A stretch of DNA of 64,000 nt from assembly GCA_001655195.1 (NCBI GenBank), contig LPNY01000042.1:195331-259330 (forward strand). The letters run 5' to 3'. Below, piece after piece: positions 17,278-28,783 of this stretch (within the stretch, counting starts at the first letter, position 1; every line of letters starts with the position of its first letter). The position numbers and the translations under genes are program-made. Below the pieces are notes generated by a model. That model ran no database searches, was not told the origin of the DNA, and worked only from the letters and a program-made list of their open reading frames with translations. The DNA is from Arcobacter sp. EP1 (GTDB lineage Bacteria > Campylobacterota > Campylobacteria > Campylobacterales > Arcobacteraceae).

Positions 17278-18423
17278 ATGAGTTTAACATACGATTTTTA
17301 TAACCCTACAACAATCCATTTTGGAAAGGGACAAGTAGCATCACTGCCAAAACATTTAACAAAAGAGAATAAAATCTTAGTTGTTTATGGTGGTGGATCT
17401 ATTAAAAACAATGGTGTATATAATGAAATAGCAACTGCTTTAGAAGGTTATGATTGGTTAGAGTTTAGCGGAGTGGAAGCAAACCCAACCTATGAAACAA
17501 TGAACAAAGCAGTTGAATTAGTACGAAAAGAGAAAGTTGATTTTGTATTAGCTGTTGGTGGTGGTTCAGTGATTGATGGTTGTAAATATTTAGTTGCCGC
17601 TTCTTTATATGATGGTGATGGTTGGGACTTTTTAGATGGAAGTGCTGAAGTTGAAAAAGCTCTACCTTTAGGTGTTGTTTTAACTCTACCTGCAACAGGA
17701 AGTGAATCAAATATGGCATCGGTATTATCTCGACGGGAGACAGATGAGAAACGATTCTTTTTCTCACCTTGTGTTTTTCCAAAGTTTGCAGTTTTAGATG
17801 CAAGTTTTATGCAAACACTTTCAGATAGACAGTTAGCAAATGGTTTAGTGGATGCTTTTGTTCATATTTGTGAGCAGTATTTAACACTACCTAACAGTTC
17901 ACTGGTTCACGATGGTTATGCAGAAACACTTCTAAAAGGATTAGTAAAACTAGCAAATGATTGGGAAAACCGAAATGAGCCACTATGGCAAGAAAACTTG
18001 ATGTTACTTGCTAACCAAGCGCTTAATGGATTTATTGGTTCAGGCGTAGCTCAAGATTGGGCGACACACTTTATTGGACATGAGTTAACAGCCTTTTATG
18101 GTATTGACCATGCGCAAAGTTTAGCCGTAGTTCAACCTCAACTTCTTCGAGTTATGAGTAGTGAAAAAAATGAAAAGCTAGAACAACTTGGACGAAATGT
18201 TTTTGGTGTTAGTGGTGATGCTGAAGATACGATTGTATTACTTGAAAACCTTTATCAAAGTGTCGGAATTTCAACAAACTTAAATGACTATGCAAATGTG
18301 GATGATAAAGTTTTAGATAATATTATCCCTGCATTAGAAGCGCACGGCATGAGTGCTATTGGTGAAAATGGAACGATTACCTTAGAGGTTTCTAAACAGA
18401 TTTTAACAATGACACAAAAATAG
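17278..18423 (+). CDS. Iron-containing alcohol dehydrogenase (YqhD/BDH-like), copy 1
   Basis: This cytosolic NAD(P)H-dependent group III alcohol dehydrogenase reduces aldehydes or oxidises alcohols. The cofactor-binding Rossmann block is [16 protein letters not shown] with [11 protein letters not shown]. Metal ligands are D192 and H196 ([12 protein letters not shown]), then H268 and H278 ([15 protein letters not shown]). The 381-residue length is normal. It is closely similar throughout to the copy at 25236, but here the second residue of the AVVS block and several loops differ. RBS AAGGAA precedes ATG. It converges on an AraC regulator 11 bp away, and that gene pair is repeated at 25-29.6 kb. 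Confidence 0.95.
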   Translation: MSLTYDFYNPTTIHFGKGQVASLPKHLTKENKILVVYGGGSIKNNGVYNEIATALEGYDWLEFSGVEANPTYETMNKAVELVRKEKVDFVLAVGGGSVIDGCKYLVAASLYDGDGWDFLDGSAEVEKALPLGVVLTLPATGSESNMASVLSRRETDEKRFFFSPCVFPKFAVLDASFMQTLSDRQLANGLVDAFVHICEQYLTLPNSSLVHDGYAETLLKGLVKLANDWENRNEPLWQENLMLLANQALNGFIGSGVAQDWATHFIGHELTAFYGIDHAQSLAVVQPQLLRVMSSEKNEKLEQLGRNVFGVSGDAEDTIVLLENLYQSVGISTNLNDYANVDDKVLDNIIPALEAHGMSAIGENGTITLEVSKQILTMTQK

Positions 18424-19408: not shown

Positions 19409-19765
19409 TTATAAAAGAGCATTAACTTTTTCTTCAAGCTCTTCAATTTGAATAGGTTTATTGAGAAAATCCATTGCTCCCTCACCAATACAATCGTAAG
19501 TGAGATTTCTATCATCAATAGAAGAGATCATTATAATTTGTGCATCTGGAAAATCAGCAATAATTTTTTTCACTGCACCCAAGCCATCAAGATTTGGCAT
19601 ATTGATATCCATAGTTACTATATCAGGTGTGTGTTCTTGATATTTTTCATAAGCAATTAGACCATCATCTGCTAATGCAATAACCTCATGTTCTAGTTTT
19701 TCAAGCATCCCTTGAAGTTGCATCTGAATGAGTTTTGAGTCATCAACTACTAATATTTTTGCCAT
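19409..19765 (-). CDS. CheY-type single-domain response regulator
   Basis: This is a stand-alone receiver domain of 118 residues. The acidic pocket is D8-D9, the phosphoacceptor is D53 in VTMDINMPNLDG, the switch residues are in MISSIDD, and the lysine lies in FLNKPIQ. It has no output domain, so it should act by binding another protein such as the flagellar switch. It starts right after the stop of the CheX-like gene and has a good RBS (AAAGGATAG). The operon is divergent from a binding protein and a CheA-like kinase, its likely phosphodonor. Confidence 0.93.
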   Translation of the reverse strand: MAKILVVDDSKLIQMQLQGMLEKLEHEVIALADDGLIAYEKYQEHTPDIVTMDINMPNLDGLGAVKKIIADFPDAQIIMISSIDDRNLTYDCIGEGAMDFLNKPIQIEELEEKVNALL

Positions 19766-20269
19766 TTAACTATCCTTTTGCTTTGAGGTACTAAAAATTA
19801 TCATCATATTTCCTTCTTTGAGGGTTAGTTTAATTTTACATACATAGAAATTTTTGTTATTAAATAGTTTACTCTCTCCGCTTAGTTCTAAAGGTGGTGA
19901 GAAGGTAAGTCGCGTATCACTATGAATATCTGCCATTGCATTTCCAATAACAATATTTAAAAACTCACTGACAGTTTCAATACTCAGTTCATCTTCCATA
20001 TCAGTACTGTATTCAAGATAGGGAAATTGGTGAAGTAATTTTTTGGCTAAACTTTTTTGAAAACTAAAAAGTAGACTTGCATTAACTGGCCCTGAAAGCG
20101 AGGACATAAAGTTTATACTATTAAGATTGAGTGAGTCTTGAATTTGCACTATTTCAATATCAAGAACATCAAGTGAGAACTCATTTTTCAGTAGTTCATA
20201 TGTTTTTAATACAAATGGTTTTGCTACTTCAATGTTTTTGCACTCTTCACAGTTTTTAAACTCTATCAT
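19766..20269 (-). CDS. CheX-like CheY-P phosphatase
   Basis: This 167-residue cytosolic protein belongs to the CheC/CheX/FliY phosphatase group, which dephosphorylates CheY. The catalytic ExxN is E102-F-L-N105 within ETVSEFLNIVIGNAMADI. SLSGPVNASLLFSF is the matching conserved strand region, and the domain is single, as in CheX. The N-terminal stretch has three Cys residues (CEECKN with a later match) of unknown meaning. It overlaps the cheY-like gene start and is the first gene of the operon. The pair would reset the signal of the divergently encoded kinase. The RBS is GGAAG. Confidence 0.8.
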   Translation of the reverse strand: MIEFKNCEECKNIEVAKPFVLKTYELLKNEFSLDVLDIEIVQIQDSLNLNSINFMSSLSGPVNASLLFSFQKSLAKKLLHQFPYLEYSTDMEDELSIETVSEFLNIVIGNAMADIHSDTRLTFSPPLELSGESKLFNNKNFYVCKIKLTLKEGNMMIIFSTSKQKDS

Positions 20270-20367
20270 ATGACTTCCAGTTTACAAGTTATTTAAATTT
20301 TAATGAATTAAAACTTACAGATGTGTTAACATTTGGCTTTAGATTAAAATACAAATAAATATATGTG

Positions 20368-20416
20368 TTGCAAGTTTTATCTCTTTTTATTTATAATCTA
20401 TAATATGATTTATAAT
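20368..20416 (+). promoter_or_regulatory. Promoter of the binding-protein/kinase operon
   Basis: TTGCAA at 20368-20373 and TATAAT at 20392-20397 have an 18-nt spacer. Two further TATAAT boxes lie at 20399-20404 and 20411-20416, giving tandem -10 options before the ATG at 20427. Confidence 0.6.
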
Positions 20417-20426
20417 AAGGATTATT

Positions 20427-21173
20427 ATGTCTGCTTTTTTCAAAACTAACTTGCTTGTATTATTGCTCTGTTTAGGTTTAGTTGCTAGTGAAATTGATGA
20501 CTTTAAGATGATGACAGAAAACTATCCTCCTTATAATATGAAAGTAGATGGTCAACTTCAAGGGATCTCTATTGATTTATGGGCCAAAATGTTGCCTATG
20601 ATTGGTTCTAAAAAAGGCATTAAAGATATTGAACTTTTACCCTGGGCAAGAGCTTATGATATTGTTCAAAAAGAGAAAAATACAGCACTTTTTGCCATGT
20701 TTCGAACTCCTGCACGCGAAAAAATGTTTAAATGGGTTGGTCCAATTGATAGCTCTGTTATTGGGCTCATCGCACGAAAAGATAAAAATATTGTAATAAA
20801 TAGCCTACAAGAGGTTAAAAAATATAAAATTGGTACTGTTAAAGATGATGTTGCAGAATTATTGCTCATTGAAAAAGGAGTAGATAAAAAAGAGTTAGAT
20901 TCTCTTTCTGGTACTAACTCAATCCTAAAATCGATACGAAAACTGAACTATGGAAGAATTGACTTGTTTGCTTATATAAATAACATCAAAGAGTGGAGCA
21001 TAGAAGGTGTTAATCCTAATGATTATGAAGTAGTGTATGTTTTACAACGTCAAGAGTTACATTTTGCTTTACATAAACAAAGCAGTGATCTATTAATCAA
21101 AAAATTACAAATGGCATTAGATGAATTAAAAACCTCTGGCATTTATGATGAAATATTAAAAAAGTATAAATAG
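20427..21173 (+). CDS. Periplasmic binding protein (SBP_bac_3), sensor-associated
   Basis: This 248-residue exported protein has a signal peptide (MSAFFKTNLLVLLLCLGLVAS). The mature part has the family-3 binding fold, with the typical start MMTENYPPYNMKVDGQLQG and later FRTPAREKMFKWVGPI and LYKIGTV-like strands. Such proteins usually feed amino acid ABC transporters. Here no permease or ATPase gene is near, and the next gene, starting 2 bp after this stop, is a membrane kinase with a periplasmic region. A role as ligand-binding input for that kinase is therefore likely. It is divergent from the CheX/CheY operon. Confidence 0.88.
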   Translation: MSAFFKTNLLVLLLCLGLVASEIDDFKMMTENYPPYNMKVDGQLQGISIDLWAKMLPMIGSKKGIKDIELLPWARAYDIVQKEKNTALFAMFRTPAREKMFKWVGPIDSSVIGLIARKDKNIVINSLQEVKKYKIGTVKDDVAELLLIEKGVDKKELDSLSGTNSILKSIRKLNYGRIDLFAYINNIKEWSIEGVNPNDYEVVYVLQRQELHFALHKQSSDLLIKKLQMALDELKTSGIYDEILKKYK

Positions 21174-21175
21174 TA

Positions 21176-23485
21176 ATGAAACTTGCCTATAAAATCGTTT
21201 TACCTTTAGTATTACTTATTACGGTATTGATTTTAGTGGTAACTAATAAATCCTTTAACTCCCAAGAGATGATGATTGAAAAAGCGCAAGCTGAACGCTA
21301 TGAAAAAATTCATGACCAGTTTGAAAAAAACCGTGATAATATTTTGGCAACTCAAAAAAAAGAGATAGCATTTATTGCCGAACTAGCAAGTGAAATATCT
21401 GTCAACTATCTTTATGATTTTGATTTTGATGCCTTAAGAAAACCATTATCAAAACTGCTCTCCCATGATGGAATTAAAGCAATTATGGTTATAGAAGCCT
21501 CTAAGGAAAATCCTGTTCTAAAAGTAGGTGTATTTGATAAAGGGTATAAAAAAATTGCTCGCGACGTAATTTGGAAAGAGAGTTCTTTACGATTAGGTCA
21601 TGTTGAAGTTTATTACGATAACAGTGCTATTCATGAATATTTTGAAGCTTCAGAAAAAGAGCTGATTTCTCAAATTGAAAAAAGTAAAATGATTCAAGAT
21701 AAAGAGTTGAAAAATATCTTGCAGCGACAAATTTTATTTGATTTAGTGATTACTTTTATTATTGTCGCACTGTTACTGGTTATGATTTATAAAGAGGTTA
21801 TCTCACCGTTGGGTAAATTAAAAGAGGGGCTCGATGCCTTTTTTGAATTTTTACAGGGAAAATCATCCCATACTAAACAAATTGAAATTAATACCAAAGA
21901 TGAGTTTGGGAAAATGAGCCGTTCTATTAATGAAAATATTCAAGTCTGTGCAAAAATGCATGAAGAGATTTATGAACTTAATAGTAATCTTGAAGCAAAG
22001 GTGCGAGAACGTGCGCAGCAACTTCTTGAAAAGAGTGAAAAGATTCGCCAACTTTTAGATAATTCTGCGGAAGGCTTTCTCTCTTTTGATGAAACCTTGA
22101 TGGTAGATAAAGAGTACTCAAAAGAGTGTGAAAATATTTTTAAAATGAGCATCGAGGGTAAATCGATTGTCGATTTATTGCACGATACAATCGATGAAGA
22201 GGATAAAAAACTCTTTGTCAAAATGGTACGAGATATTTTTGATCCAACAATACCAAAACGAAGAAAAGATGTACTATTGCGTCTTTTCTCAAAAGAGTTT
22301 GATATTTATGAAAAGAGTATTCGAGTTGATTATAAAATTATTGGTGATAAAAAGATCATGTTGATTTTAAATGATATTACCCAACAAAAGATGCTAGAAG
22401 AAAAAATAGAGTTAGAGAAAAAACGTCTAAAAATGGTAGTGAGTGTCGTAAGTAATCTCGAAGAGTTTCATGAAATGATTGAAGAGTTTATTCTCTTTTC
22501 TCATAACCGAGAAAACTCAGCAGTCAATGAGAATAACTTCTTAACAGTATTGACTCAATACTACAGAAGAATTCATACCTTTAAAGGAAATTTTGCCCAA
22601 AAAGAGTTAGTAAATATCGTGCCAAAACTGCATTCTTTAGAGTCAAAACTTAACGCACTTCTAAAAAATCCACAACGCCAATATAAAGATTTTAAAAAAC
22701 TACTCCAAGAAAATGACCTACGTTCGTGGTTAAATGAAGATATTCAAGTCTTAAAAGATGTCTTAGATGAGCGAATTTTAGAAAATCGTCATGAAATAGC
22801 AGTTTCAGCACCACTCATTGAGATGGTAGAAAAAAAGTTAAAAGTACTTGTGTCTCACCCTAAAAAAGAGCGTAATGTAACCTATGAAGAGATTTTAGAA
22901 GATGTCTCTAAAATGAAAAGACGATCATTAAGAGAATTGTTAAGCTCTTATCCAAAATCAGTTGAACAGTTGTCTTTTCGTCTGTCAAAACCTGTTTATC
23001 CAATGCAAATTTTAGGAGATGATTTATATGTCTCTTATGGTATTAAATCTTTTATAAAAAGTTTAGTGCATCTTTTTAGAAATAGTATTGACCATGGTAT
23101 TGAGACCTTAGAAGAGCGTTTAAACAGTGGAAAGAATGAAAAAGGAATGATTAGTTGTGTGCTTAGTTGTACCAAAGAAAACCTAGTTATTGAGATTGTT
23201 GACGATGGAAAAGGTATCCAGTTAGATAAAGTTAAAACAAAAGCATTAATCCAAGGACAAACAAAAGAGAGCTTAGAAAAGATGTCTGATAATGAAGTAT
23301 TATCACTAATTTTCTTAGATAGTTTTTCAACCAAAGAAGAGGTTACTGATCTTTCAGGTCGTGGTATGGGATTAAGCGCTGTTAAACAAGAGCTTGATAC
23401 TTTAGAAGGTACCGTTGATATAAAAACACAAATGGGAGTAGGGACTACGTTTACCTTTACTATACCACTTTCAAAAGTTACTTAG
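21176..23485 (+). CDS. Membrane-anchored CheA-like histidine kinase with PAS and Hpt modules
   Basis: The order of parts in 769 residues is as follows. There is a TM helix (about 5-22), a periplasmic region (about 25-185), and a second TM (about 187-205). A HAMP-like/coiled-coil segment follows, then a PAS-like domain (about 290-410). Next comes an Hpt-like segment with H467 in RRIHTFKGNFAQ. Last is a CheA-type ATPase with N-box HLFRNSIDHGIE (N636), DDGKGI, and SFSTKEEVTDLSGRGMGLSAV. The Hpt motif and VTDLSGRGMG signature are CheA-like rather than HisKA-like. There is no CheW-like P5 domain; the protein ends after the ATPase. It is coupled to the binding protein gene upstream, and CheX/CheY are divergent. 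Confidence 0.88.
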   Translation: MKLAYKIVLPLVLLITVLILVVTNKSFNSQEMMIEKAQAERYEKIHDQFEKNRDNILATQKKEIAFIAELASEISVNYLYDFDFDALRKPLSKLLSHDGIKAIMVIEASKENPVLKVGVFDKGYKKIARDVIWKESSLRLGHVEVYYDNSAIHEYFEASEKELISQIEKSKMIQDKELKNILQRQILFDLVITFIIVALLLVMIYKEVISPLGKLKEGLDAFFEFLQGKSSHTKQIEINTKDEFGKMSRSINENIQVCAKMHEEIYELNSNLEAKVRERAQQLLEKSEKIRQLLDNSAEGFLSFDETLMVDKEYSKECENIFKMSIEGKSIVDLLHDTIDEEDKKLFVKMVRDIFDPTIPKRRKDVLLRLFSKEFDIYEKSIRVDYKIIGDKKIMLILNDITQQKMLEEKIELEKKRLKMVVSVVSNLEEFHEMIEEFILFSHNRENSAVNENNFLTVLTQYYRRIHTFKGNFAQKELVNIVPKLHSLESKLNALLKNPQRQYKDFKKLLQENDLRSWLNEDIQVLKDVLDERILENRHEIAVSAPLIEMVEKKLKVLVSHPKKERNVTYEEILEDVSKMKRRSLRELLSSYPKSVEQLSFRLSKPVYPMQILGDDLYVSYGIKSFIKSLVHLFRNSIDHGIETLEERLNSGKNEKGMISCVLSCTKENLVIEIVDDGKGIQLDKVKTKALIQGQTKESLEKMSDNEVLSLIFLDSFSTKEEVTDLSGRGMGLSAVKQELDTLEGTVDIKTQMGVGTTFTFTIPLSKVT

Positions 23486-25235: not shown

Positions 25236-26375
25236 ATGGAATTTTCATATCATAACCCAACCGCAATTGAGTTTGGAAAAGGCAAAATCGAAGCAATTAC
25301 TAACTTAATCCCAAAGGATAATAAAGTATTAGTTGTTTATGGTGGTGGTTCAATTAAAAATAATGGAGCTTACGACCAAGTAGTAAAAGCGTTAGAAAAT
25401 CACGAATGGTTAGAGTTTTCAGGAGTTGAACCAAATCCAACAGTTGAAACAATGAATAAAGCAGTTGAAGTAATAAAAAATGAAAAAGTTGATTTTATTT
25501 TAGCCGTTGGTGGTGGTTCAGTAATTGATGGCTGTAAATATTTAGCAGCAGCTGCACTTTATGATGGAGATGCATGGGACTTTTTAGATGGAAGTGCAGA
25601 AGTTGAAAAAGCGATGCCTTTAGGTGTTGTTTTAACACTTGCAGCAACAGGAAGTGAGTCAAACAATTTAGCAGTAGTTTCAAGAAAATCGACAGATGAA
25701 AAGAGATTATACTTCTCAAACCACTCTTATCCACAATTTGCAATCTTAGATGCAAGTTTCATGAGTACATTAAGTGATAGACAACTTTCAAATGGTTTAG
25801 TGGATGCTTTTGTACATATTTCTGAGCAATATTTAACAAAAACAAATACAACTTTAGTAAATGATGGTTATGCTGAGACTCTATATAGAGGTTTAGTAAA
25901 ATTAGCAAACCGATGGGATGAGCGAAGAACTTACCTTTGGCAAGAAAACTTAATGCATATTTGTAACCAAGCACTTAATTTCCAATTGGGAGCAGGGGTT
26001 GTTCAAGATTGGTCAACGCATTTAATAGGACATGAGTTAACTGCTTTTTATGGATTAGACCATGGGCGGTCGTTAACTGTTGTATTACCACATCTTTTAC
26101 GAGAGATGATGGATGACAAAGGCGAAAAAATAGCTCAAATGGGTGAAAATGTATTTGGGATCAAAGATGATAATGAAGCTGTTATTCAAAAAATTGAAGC
26201 AGTATTTCATAGTATTGATGTTGCTACAAAATTAAATGAATATGATATTGATGATAAAGTTATTGAGAATGTGCAGTCTGCATTTAAGTCTCATGGTTAC
26301 TTAGAAATAGGCGAAAATGGTACTGTGACGTTAGATAAAGTTGCAAATATTTTAACACGATCTATGGTGGCATAA
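25236..26375 (+). CDS. Iron-containing alcohol dehydrogenase (YqhD/BDH-like), copy 2
   Basis: This is a 379-residue group III alcohol dehydrogenase, a close paralogue of 17278-18423. The cofactor block [16 protein letters not shown] and [16 protein letters not shown] are conserved, and the metal ligands appear in [12 protein letters not shown] and [15 protein letters not shown]. Differences from copy 1 cluster in [19 protein letters not shown] and the C-terminal helices. It is divergent from the porin and followed by a chemoreceptor, then an AraC regulator. A hairpin with ACAAAG/CTTTGT arms follows the stop. Promoter context differs from copy 1, so the two are probably regulated differently. 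Confidence 0.95.
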
Positions 26376-26506: not shown

Positions 26507-28783
26507 ATGAAAAACGTGACTTTCTCAAAAAAATTATTATTATTTGTATTACTTGTTTTATTTACATCACTTGGTATTAATGTTACCTTGACTGCAATAA
26601 AGAGTTTTGATAGTTCAAAAAAAGCTTCTAGTAATTATATAAAAGAGGTAACACAAAAAAATGCATTGCTTATACAAGAGTCATTAAATGATTCTTTAGG
26701 CATTTCAAAGCAGTTAACAACGGCAATTATCTCAATGAAAGAGAATAATTTACAGAATAAAGACGTTATTATTAGTATGATGAGTAACATAACTTTGAAT
26801 AATACGTTTATAAAAGGGGTGTTTATTGATATTGATTCAAATAAACTTTTTCCCAATGATACATCATTAAAAGACCTCTCTACTCATGATGACATTGGAC
26901 GATTTGCTCCTTATGTTATACGCACAAAAGATACAATAGATATTGAACCTTTGCCAGTTGAAACAACAAAAGATAGACGATGGTATACCCAAACTAAACT
27001 TCATGGCAAAGAGTTTATTCTTGAGCCTTACTTTTACGAAATAGAGGGAAAAAAAGAGTTAATCACAGCATTAGTTGTTCCCGTTTATGAAAAAGGAACT
27101 TTTATTGGTGTGATAGGAATTGACCTTCTTTTTGAAAGCATTAATCAACGTATTGATAACCTTAAACTGTATGAAACAGGTTATGCATTTTTGACAACAA
27201 GTTCTGGGAAAATAATTGCACATAAAAAGAGACAAGTAATTGGGAAAAATATTGCAGAACTAACAAAAGATAAAAAATTATTAGCTATTATTGAGAGTGT
27301 AAAAAAAGGAAAAGATTATGAAACAGATGCCTCTTTTGCAAAAAAAGGCGTCTTGAATCATTACTATATCAATAGTTTTGAGGTGGGAAAAAGTGGCATA
27401 AACTGGGGGTATGGAGTTAGTGTTCCTATTGATGAATACATAGCAACAGCAAAAGAGATTCGATTTTTTAATATTTTAGCGGGATTAGCAACTTTAATAT
27501 TAGTCTCTCTTGTGATTTTCTTTTTTTCAAAAAAACTTGAGAAAAATTTAAGAAATATTACCACAGGGCTTAACTCTTTTTTTGATTTTTTAAATAGAAA
27601 AACTACGAGTAGTCAACATATTCAAATTAGTAGTAATGATGAATTTGGACAAATGGCACAGACGATAAATAATAATGTTGATCAAGTTGAACAGGCATTA
27701 AAAGAGGATAATGATATTATTCATGAAGTGCAATTGATAGTTCAAAATGTAAAAGAGGGAACCCTTTCTAAAAGAATTCACAAGCAGACAAATAATCCGT
27801 CATTAACAGAACTAAAGATTGCTTTTAATGAAATGTTAGATGTATTGATGAATGATATCTCAAGTGATACAAAAAAACTCACCCTTGCTCTTGAAAAGTT
27901 TTCATTCTTGGATTTTACAAAAAGAGTGGATGATGATGGTCAAACTGCACAAGGGTTAAACAATCTTGCAATGACGATTACAGAAATGCTTATTGAAAAT
28001 AAATCCAATGGTTTAACGCTACAAAATAGTTCTGAAGTTTTAATGAATAATGTAACAATCTTGAATAACTCATCAAATCAAGCTGCCGCAAGTTTAGAAG
28101 AAACCGCCGCTGCAATTGAACAAATAGCCGCTAATATAAACAGTAATAATGAAAATGTTATTAAAATGGCGCAATATGCACAAGAGTTAAAAAAATCAGC
28201 TTCTAGTGGAAATGCGTTGGCAAATGATACTACAATAGCAATGGAAAAGATTGATGAAGAGGTTAATGCAATTAGTGAAGCTATCTCTATTATTGACCAA
28301 ATTGCATTTCAAACAAATATTTTATCTTTAAATGCCGCAGTAGAGGCGGCCACTGCTGGAGAAGCAGGCAAAGGGTTTGCCGTGGTTGCACAAGAAGTAC
28401 GAAATTTAGCTTCACGAAGTGCAGAGGCAGCTAGTGAAATTAAAATTTTGGTTGAAAGTGCTACTTCAAAAGCAAATGATGGTAAAGAGATTGCTAATAA
28501 AATGATTGAAGGTTATAGTTCTTTAAATGAAAACGTGACAGAGACTTTAGCTCTTATAAGTAATGTTGAAATAGCATCAAAGGAACAACAATCAGGAATT
28601 GAACAAATCACGAATGTGGTAAATGAGTTAGATAAACAAACTCAAGAGAATGCGGCTGTTGCTAATAATACACAAACTATTGCAATGCAAACATTGACAA
28701 TATCTGAAACCATTGTCAATAATGCGAACCAAAAAGAGTTTATAGGCAAAGACCAAGTAAAAGCAAAAATATTAGATGAATAA
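26507..28783 (+). CDS. Methyl-accepting chemotaxis protein with double Cache sensor
   Basis: This 758-residue inner-membrane chemoreceptor has TM1 at about 8-28, a periplasmic dCache domain (about 35-300, with [20 protein letters not shown] and [19 protein letters not shown]), and TM2 at about 320-340. HAMP-like segments follow (about 345-500), then a signalling domain whose tip contains the hairpin [18 protein letters not shown]-type sequence, here [13 protein letters not shown] followed by [16 protein letters not shown]. It lacks a C-terminal CheR pentapeptide of the NWETF type. It sits between ADH copy 2 and AraC copy 2. An association with alcohols, acids or the ligand of the nearby redox genes is guesswork. 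Confidence 0.94.

Follow-up and report, generated by a model that had tools for sequence, protein, structure and literature searches.

A two-transmembrane CheA-like kinase of Arcobacter sp. EP1 encoded with a solute-binding protein, CheX and CheY, and the kinase family to which it belongs

Genes of the locus

The window, by which we mean the whole stretch of 64,000 nucleotides that was analysed (Arcobacter sp. EP1, contig LPNY01000042.1, from a genome of 3.0 Mb), contains a pair of divergent operons for which a preliminary description had listed four genes. Open reading frames were found at the corresponding positions, and matches to the Pfam families CheX, Response_reg, SBP_bac_3 and HATPase_c agree with that account. 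The features, in coordinates of the window, are:

19409-19765, minus strand: cheY, a CheY-type single-domain response regulator of 118 aa (Pfam Response_reg, 3.2e-27)
19766-20269, minus strand: cheX, a predicted CheX-type CheY-P phosphatase of 167 aa (Pfam CheX, 2.4e-9)
20270-20426: divergent intergenic region of 157 bp between cheX and the solute-binding protein gene
20427-21173, plus strand: SBP_bac_3 gene, a family 3 periplasmic solute-binding protein (SBP3) of 248 aa with an N-terminal signal sequence (Pfam, 6.9e-16)
21176-23485, plus strand: gene of a two-TM kinase of 769 aa
23763-23785: strong terminator-like hairpin between the kinase gene and a convergent porin-like gene

The minus-strand genes cheX (20269-19766) and cheY, read in this order, abut with a gap of 0 bp, while the plus-strand SBP3 and kinase genes lie 2 bp apart. 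The top promoter-like match within the divergent region is TTGCAA-18-TATAAT at 20368-20397 (plus strand), promoter-like sites being no more frequent there than in shuffled sequences. CheY has its phospho-acceptor at D53, where it had been placed before, together with the acidic residues D8/D9, S81 and K103. CheX scores 37.5 bits against a Pfam cut-off of 27 and carries the catalytic-type ExxN motif at E102/N105; across the kinase family described below, the Asn of this motif is present in 68/68 CheX sequences and an acidic residue likewise in 68/68 (61 Glu and 7 Asp). By its fold and its ExxN motif the protein of the window is a CheX, and its role as a CheY-P phosphatase is predicted.

No ABC transporter, CheW or flagellar genes were found between 15 and 28 kb in the window; since no transporter is nearby, the SBP3 protein probably serves in signalling only. 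An MCP gene lies at 26507-28783, about 3 kb beyond the kinase gene, and the kinase operon itself includes neither CheW nor MCP genes. No Sia genes occur in the window, and no output gene of the GGDEF, Sia or STAS type adjoins the module there. Two genes for iron-containing alcohol dehydrogenases (17278-18423 and 25236-26375), whose products are 64% identical, flank an AraC-type regulator, the module and the porin-like gene. The region may form a single metabolic island, or the enclosed stretch may have been inserted between two copies of a duplicated gene.

Domain architecture and input of the kinase

The kinase can be divided into the following regions, all on the plus strand:

21176-21736: residues 1-187, TM1 and periplasmic sensor domain, a mobile module linked to SBP3 genes
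21713-21937: residues ~180-254, TM2 and a HAMP-like linker (hydropathy; weak Pfam HAMP; NCBIfam chemoreceptor/SiaA linker matches)
22037-22399: residues 288-408, PAS-like domain (alignment; family signature NAGQGFLSF...EYSKEC)
22406-22768: residues ~411-531, Hpt/P1-type helical domain with the phospho-His H467 in HTFKGN and the conserved E489
22769-22897: residues ~532-574, short two-helix linker where CheA has P3 (helices of the AF2 model)
22898-23473: residues 575-766, CheA P4-type ATPase with the N box HLFRNSIDHGIE and the G boxes DDGKGI and SGRGMG

The ATPase is recognised by Pfam as HATPase_c (3.7e-16) and, more specifically, as the P4 domain of CheA by NCBIfam (1.8e-43) and by comparison with CheA in the PDB (1.5e-34). 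Structure prediction of the C-terminal part, which the preliminary description had proposed as a check of its CheA-type assignment, gave for residues 410-769 an AF2 model with a pLDDT of 90.5, whose top fold matches in the PDB are the P3-P4 and P4 structures of CheA. The chain ends 3 residues past P4 and has no match to PF01584, the CheW-like P5 domain, so that the earlier statement that P5 is missing holds. No HisKA domain, which that description had named as evidence against its reading, was detected by Pfam in the window kinase or in the cores of its family (0/49), and by this lack of HisKA/DHp the family differs from the classical HisKA histidine kinases.

The Hpt domain of the window kinase alone falls under the Pfam reporting limit, and a Foldseek search with its isolated model returned no significant match; the label is given because other members of the family match Hpt/P1. 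PF01627 is matched by 39/49 members (best 1.4e-7), the family profile matches the CheA P1 structure at 1e-7, and an HMM built from the kinase family alone matches P1 in 19/19 canonical CheAs. The previously suggested Hpt-like domain is thus corroborated at the level of the family, with H467 at the expected residue. This histidine is kept in 98/98 ungapped rows of the family alignment and E489 in 100/100, the N and G boxes of P4 are conserved as well, and the predicted phosphorylation site gives the family its signature peptide, HTFKGxF[ASL]Q. The region between Hpt and P4 is less clear: the dimerisation domain P3 (H-kinase_dim, PF02895) has no Pfam match in the window kinase and weak ones in 2/49 members, the two-helix segment of the AF2 model aligns with CheA P3-P4 structures but with a high rmsd, and the P3 region of E. 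coli CheA matches the kinase profile at 0.022.

Hydropathy places the TM segments at residues ~1-29 and ~180-213, in keeping with the two reported before. The PAS domain that had been assigned before is seen in profile-profile comparison (73% probability, P=3e-5; control 0.1%) but has no direct match in Pfam or PDB profiles, and we call it PAS-like.

Residues 1-187, which make up the sensor part, have no match in either Pfam or the PDB. The genetic context of this part is informative: an SBP3 gene is linked in 10/11 close sensor proteins, the window included, and lies directly upstream in 9/10 distinct ones besides the window, the exception being an MCP. The effector joined to the SBP3-linked sensor varies: it can be a kinase of the window type, a SpoIIE phosphatase or a hybrid kinase that bears a receiver. 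Among 10 more distant sensor proteins, SBP3 is adjacent in 4, fused in 1 and neither in 5. The window SBP matches AncQR in the PDB (7.9e-9), and its interaction with the sensor domain is a prediction from gene linkage. Other kinases of the family bear Cache, fused SBP3 or NMT1, Fe-hydrogenase-like, receiver or GAF domains, and one (L057) is adjoined by a Peripla_BP_6 protein; the common element of the family is a kinase that carries, or adjoins, its own input.

Some of these N-terminal regions are unusual. Six or seven family kinases begin with Fe-only hydrogenase large-subunit and ferredoxin domains, which suggests redox or H2 sensing. Three family members have Ser/Thr protein kinase and AAA domains in their N-terminal regions. 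Giant kinases of ~1980 aa each are encoded at L089:4549-10533, L141:4537-10473 and L148:4525-10467; they are probably the same three proteins, in which case they could be fusions of a Ser/Thr kinase with a histidine kinase.

Distribution, neighbours and outputs of the family

The family was searched for among relatives and in 84,980 species genomes. Matches with names come from Campylobacterota, Pseudomonadota, Bacillota, Thermodesulfobacteriota and one MAG labelled Bacteroidales; since several of them are MAG contigs, single taxon labels may be wrong. Within Campylobacterales the distribution is patchy (18/299 sampled genomes), and plasmids yielded just two weak matches. An unrooted tree of P4 domains groups 19 CheAs of Campylobacterales on a single branch (100/100), which is separate from every member of the family. 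Rather than being a one-off CheA, the window kinase belongs to a family of kinases that is both broad and separate.

Genes encoded in a co-directional run with the kinase, or fused to it, were scored for the 69 members of the family for which over 3.5 kb of downstream sequence was available. This survey of gene neighbourhoods, suggested in the preliminary description together with the remark that unconserved neighbours would speak against a common module, found CheX beside 49 relatives, a receiver (REC) beside 48 and both beside 41, as well as GGDEF beside 15; the neighbours do recur. Counted on named loci only (n=67), the figures are 50, 55 and 46 for CheX, REC and both. In 24/69 relatives CheX is fused to the C-terminus of the kinase, i.e. 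in the position of P5 in CheA, and about 30% have no CheX nearby. No CheX was found near canonical cheA in 19 loci (0/19, ~1.5 kb on each side).

The relatives also point to the output. Their CheY genes are followed by genes for PAS-GGDEF or GGDEF proteins, and in one case (L118) CheY is fused to GGDEF. Several CheYs from Bacillota have a conserved C-terminal domain, which is matched by Pfam STAS in 4/10 (best 0.0015) and whose best PDB profile matches are anti-sigma-factor antagonists (0.014-0.056); it is probably a STAS domain. Downstream CheY receivers with such a conserved C-terminal domain, barely recognised by Pfam and probably STAS, are encoded at L110, L120, L122, L127, L130 and L147. 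Genes of the SiaA/SiaB/SiaC type share an operon with three relatives (L072, L073 and L080), and one group of loci reads SBP3-SpoIIE, SiaB (DUF6272), SiaC, kinase-CheX, REC, REC, GGDEF. A diguanylate cyclase homologous over its full length to the cognate cyclase of the relatives was sought in the window's genome, where only the GGDEF part was matched. As judged from relatives, not from the window, these associations favour control of c-di-GMP or of a partner switch as the output of the family, which is probably not the motor alone.

Three other loci of the same genome deserve mention in their own right. At L183:7822-9792, CheY, a CheC-type phosphatase and a PAS-GGDEF protein are encoded as one run, with no family kinase adjacent; the locus is a further instance of CheC/X and CheY linked to c-di-GMP. 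At L184:7944-9969, a gene for a CheC-type phosphatase overlaps that of a PAS-PAS-HisKA kinase. At L185:4061-11001, an SBP3-PAS-SpoIIE protein of at least 1575 aa is followed by REC, SiaB-like, SiaC-like and GGDEF-like genes, a run that by its predicted domains is an SBP-driven Sia-type cassette.

Proposed signalling, alternatives and known systems

We consider it probable that the module is built around a receptor kinase that works independently of chemoreceptor arrays. The periplasmic SBP3 would bind a small solute and dock on the periplasmic domain of the kinase; the signal would cross TM2, the HAMP-like linker and the PAS-like domain and set the rate at which P4 phosphorylates H467 on the attached Hpt (P1) domain; the phosphate would then be handed on to CheY, at D53, although the cheY gene is divergent from that of the kinase; and CheX would strip it from CheY-P. 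CheW, a receptor array and methylation would not be required. The path from ATP through H467 to D53, the hydrolysis by CheX and the gating by SBP3 follow by analogy with the biochemistry of CheA, Hpt and CheX. Domain content and conserved linkage uphold this design as it was originally outlined, but not the motility output that it implied, as the relatives connect the module with diguanylate cyclases, SiaABC partner-switch proteins and STAS-like domains.

Alternatively, the kinase, or CheY on its behalf, could be an input branch to flagellar chemotaxis that delivers to the F7-type pool of CheY or to the motor, with CheX acting as sink or reset. The CheY of the window is indeed a single-domain receiver, the CheY of chemotaxis is a substrate of canonical CheX, which dephosphorylates it, and the genome possesses, besides the MCP gene of the window, a canonical operon (L186) in the order cheY-cheA-cheR-cheD-cheB, in which R, D and B were read from sequence. 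The CheA encoded there has all of the Hpt, H-kinase_dim, HATPase and CheW domains, and the gene order is that reported for the Arcobacter F7 system (PMC9321776), which, with relatives of the genome in Campylobacterales, points to Arcobacteraceae. The presence of this normal operon with a full CheA indicates that the window kinase is not the chemotaxis CheA of the organism. Against a flagellar branch, the operon of the window kinase lacks CheW and MCP, canonical cheA loci lack CheX, and in relatives the partners of the module are of the GGDEF, SiaABC and STAS-like kinds, not flagellar. We regard such a flagellar branch as unlikely.

The assignment of CheY to this kinase depends on the relatives, because in the window cheX and cheY are divergent from the kinase gene and not downstream of it. 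That the two operons are merely back to back by chance, and that the kinase signals to another receiver, would agree with this orientation and with the ~73 places in the genome that resemble the window receiver. It is nonetheless improbable, given that most relatives, from several phyla, have kinase, CheX and CheY encoded in one direction or as fusions, and that a second family kinase of the same genome (L054) is encoded with CheX and CheY as one run. There is similarly little to recommend the idea that the Hpt domain serves chiefly to take up phosphate from other hybrid kinases or to pass it on, with CheY as a phosphate sink: an N-terminal Response_reg is found in 10/79 N-terminal regions of relatives and some relatives cluster with hybrid kinases, but the catalytic motifs of P4 are intact and conserved in the family, and the window kinase has no receiver domain.

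The proposed array-independent receptor kinase resembles CheA in its separate Hpt/P1 phosphodonor, P4-type ATPase and predicted CheY-like substrate. It differs in having its own TM receptor and a PAS-like domain ahead of P1, in leaving no room for P2 and lacking both a P3 recognisable by Pfam and the P5/CheW domain, and in the absence of CheW, MCP, CheB and CheR neighbours. CheX belongs with the CheC/CheX/FliY phosphatases (Park et al. 2004, as cited in PMC8789113). The CheX of the window is like them in its above-threshold Pfam match and ExxN motif, whereas the CheX proteins of the family go with a receptor kinase, as gene neighbours or as fusions, and not with chemotaxis genes. In Rhodobacter sphaeroides CheA3, Hpt and CheY-P phosphatase activity are combined in one chain that has no P4 and whose phosphatase domain is unrelated to CheX; the kinase-CheX fusions would likewise join Hpt with a CheY-P phosphatase, but they have P4, with CheX after it. 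TorT-TorS and LuxP-LuxQ are examples of SBP-dependent sensor kinases, in which the kinase in the membrane probably receives the ligand by way of a binding protein in the periplasm. Those kinases use HisKA; the resemblance concerns the predicted input and not the transmitter, which here is CheA-like.

The Wsp system is a chemosensory pathway to c-di-GMP. Geobacter Esn is another pathway from a CheA-type kinase to c-di-GMP (PMC5585712). Both share with the family the logic of CheA-type kinase, receiver and diguanylate cyclase, but both need separate MCP and CheW-type proteins. SiaABCD of Pseudomonas aeruginosa (PMC8457831, PMC7647112) lacks a histidine kinase as well as CheX and CheY, and the window has no Sia genes. 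The operons of several relatives do include SiaB, SiaC, a SpoIIE phosphatase and GGDEF, and the SpoIIE protein bears the SBP3-linked sensor. Across the full text of 5.39 million open-access papers, no account of the kinase family or of the kinase-CheX fusions came to light.

More tentatively, though as a quite conceivable extension, we propose that the family may constitute a class of receptor-fused, array-free CheA cores that crosses phyla, in which CheX in the P5 slot would make kinase and phosphatase one chain and CheY would lead to c-di-GMP or a partner switch. Kinases of Campylobacterota have been counted as HisKA plus HATPase (PMC9239204), and such counts would miss the family. The additional CheYs of Arcobacter, one of them beside cheC, were assigned to chemosensing because of such neighbours (PMC9321776). 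CheX or CheY genes beside kinases of this family may be counted among the genes of chemotaxis. The usual picture of CheA is that of a kinase under the control of receptors, through CheW and arrays, and a receptor-fused and often phosphatase-fused family with the P1 and P4 domains of CheA would allow array-free control of CheA chemistry to be tested.
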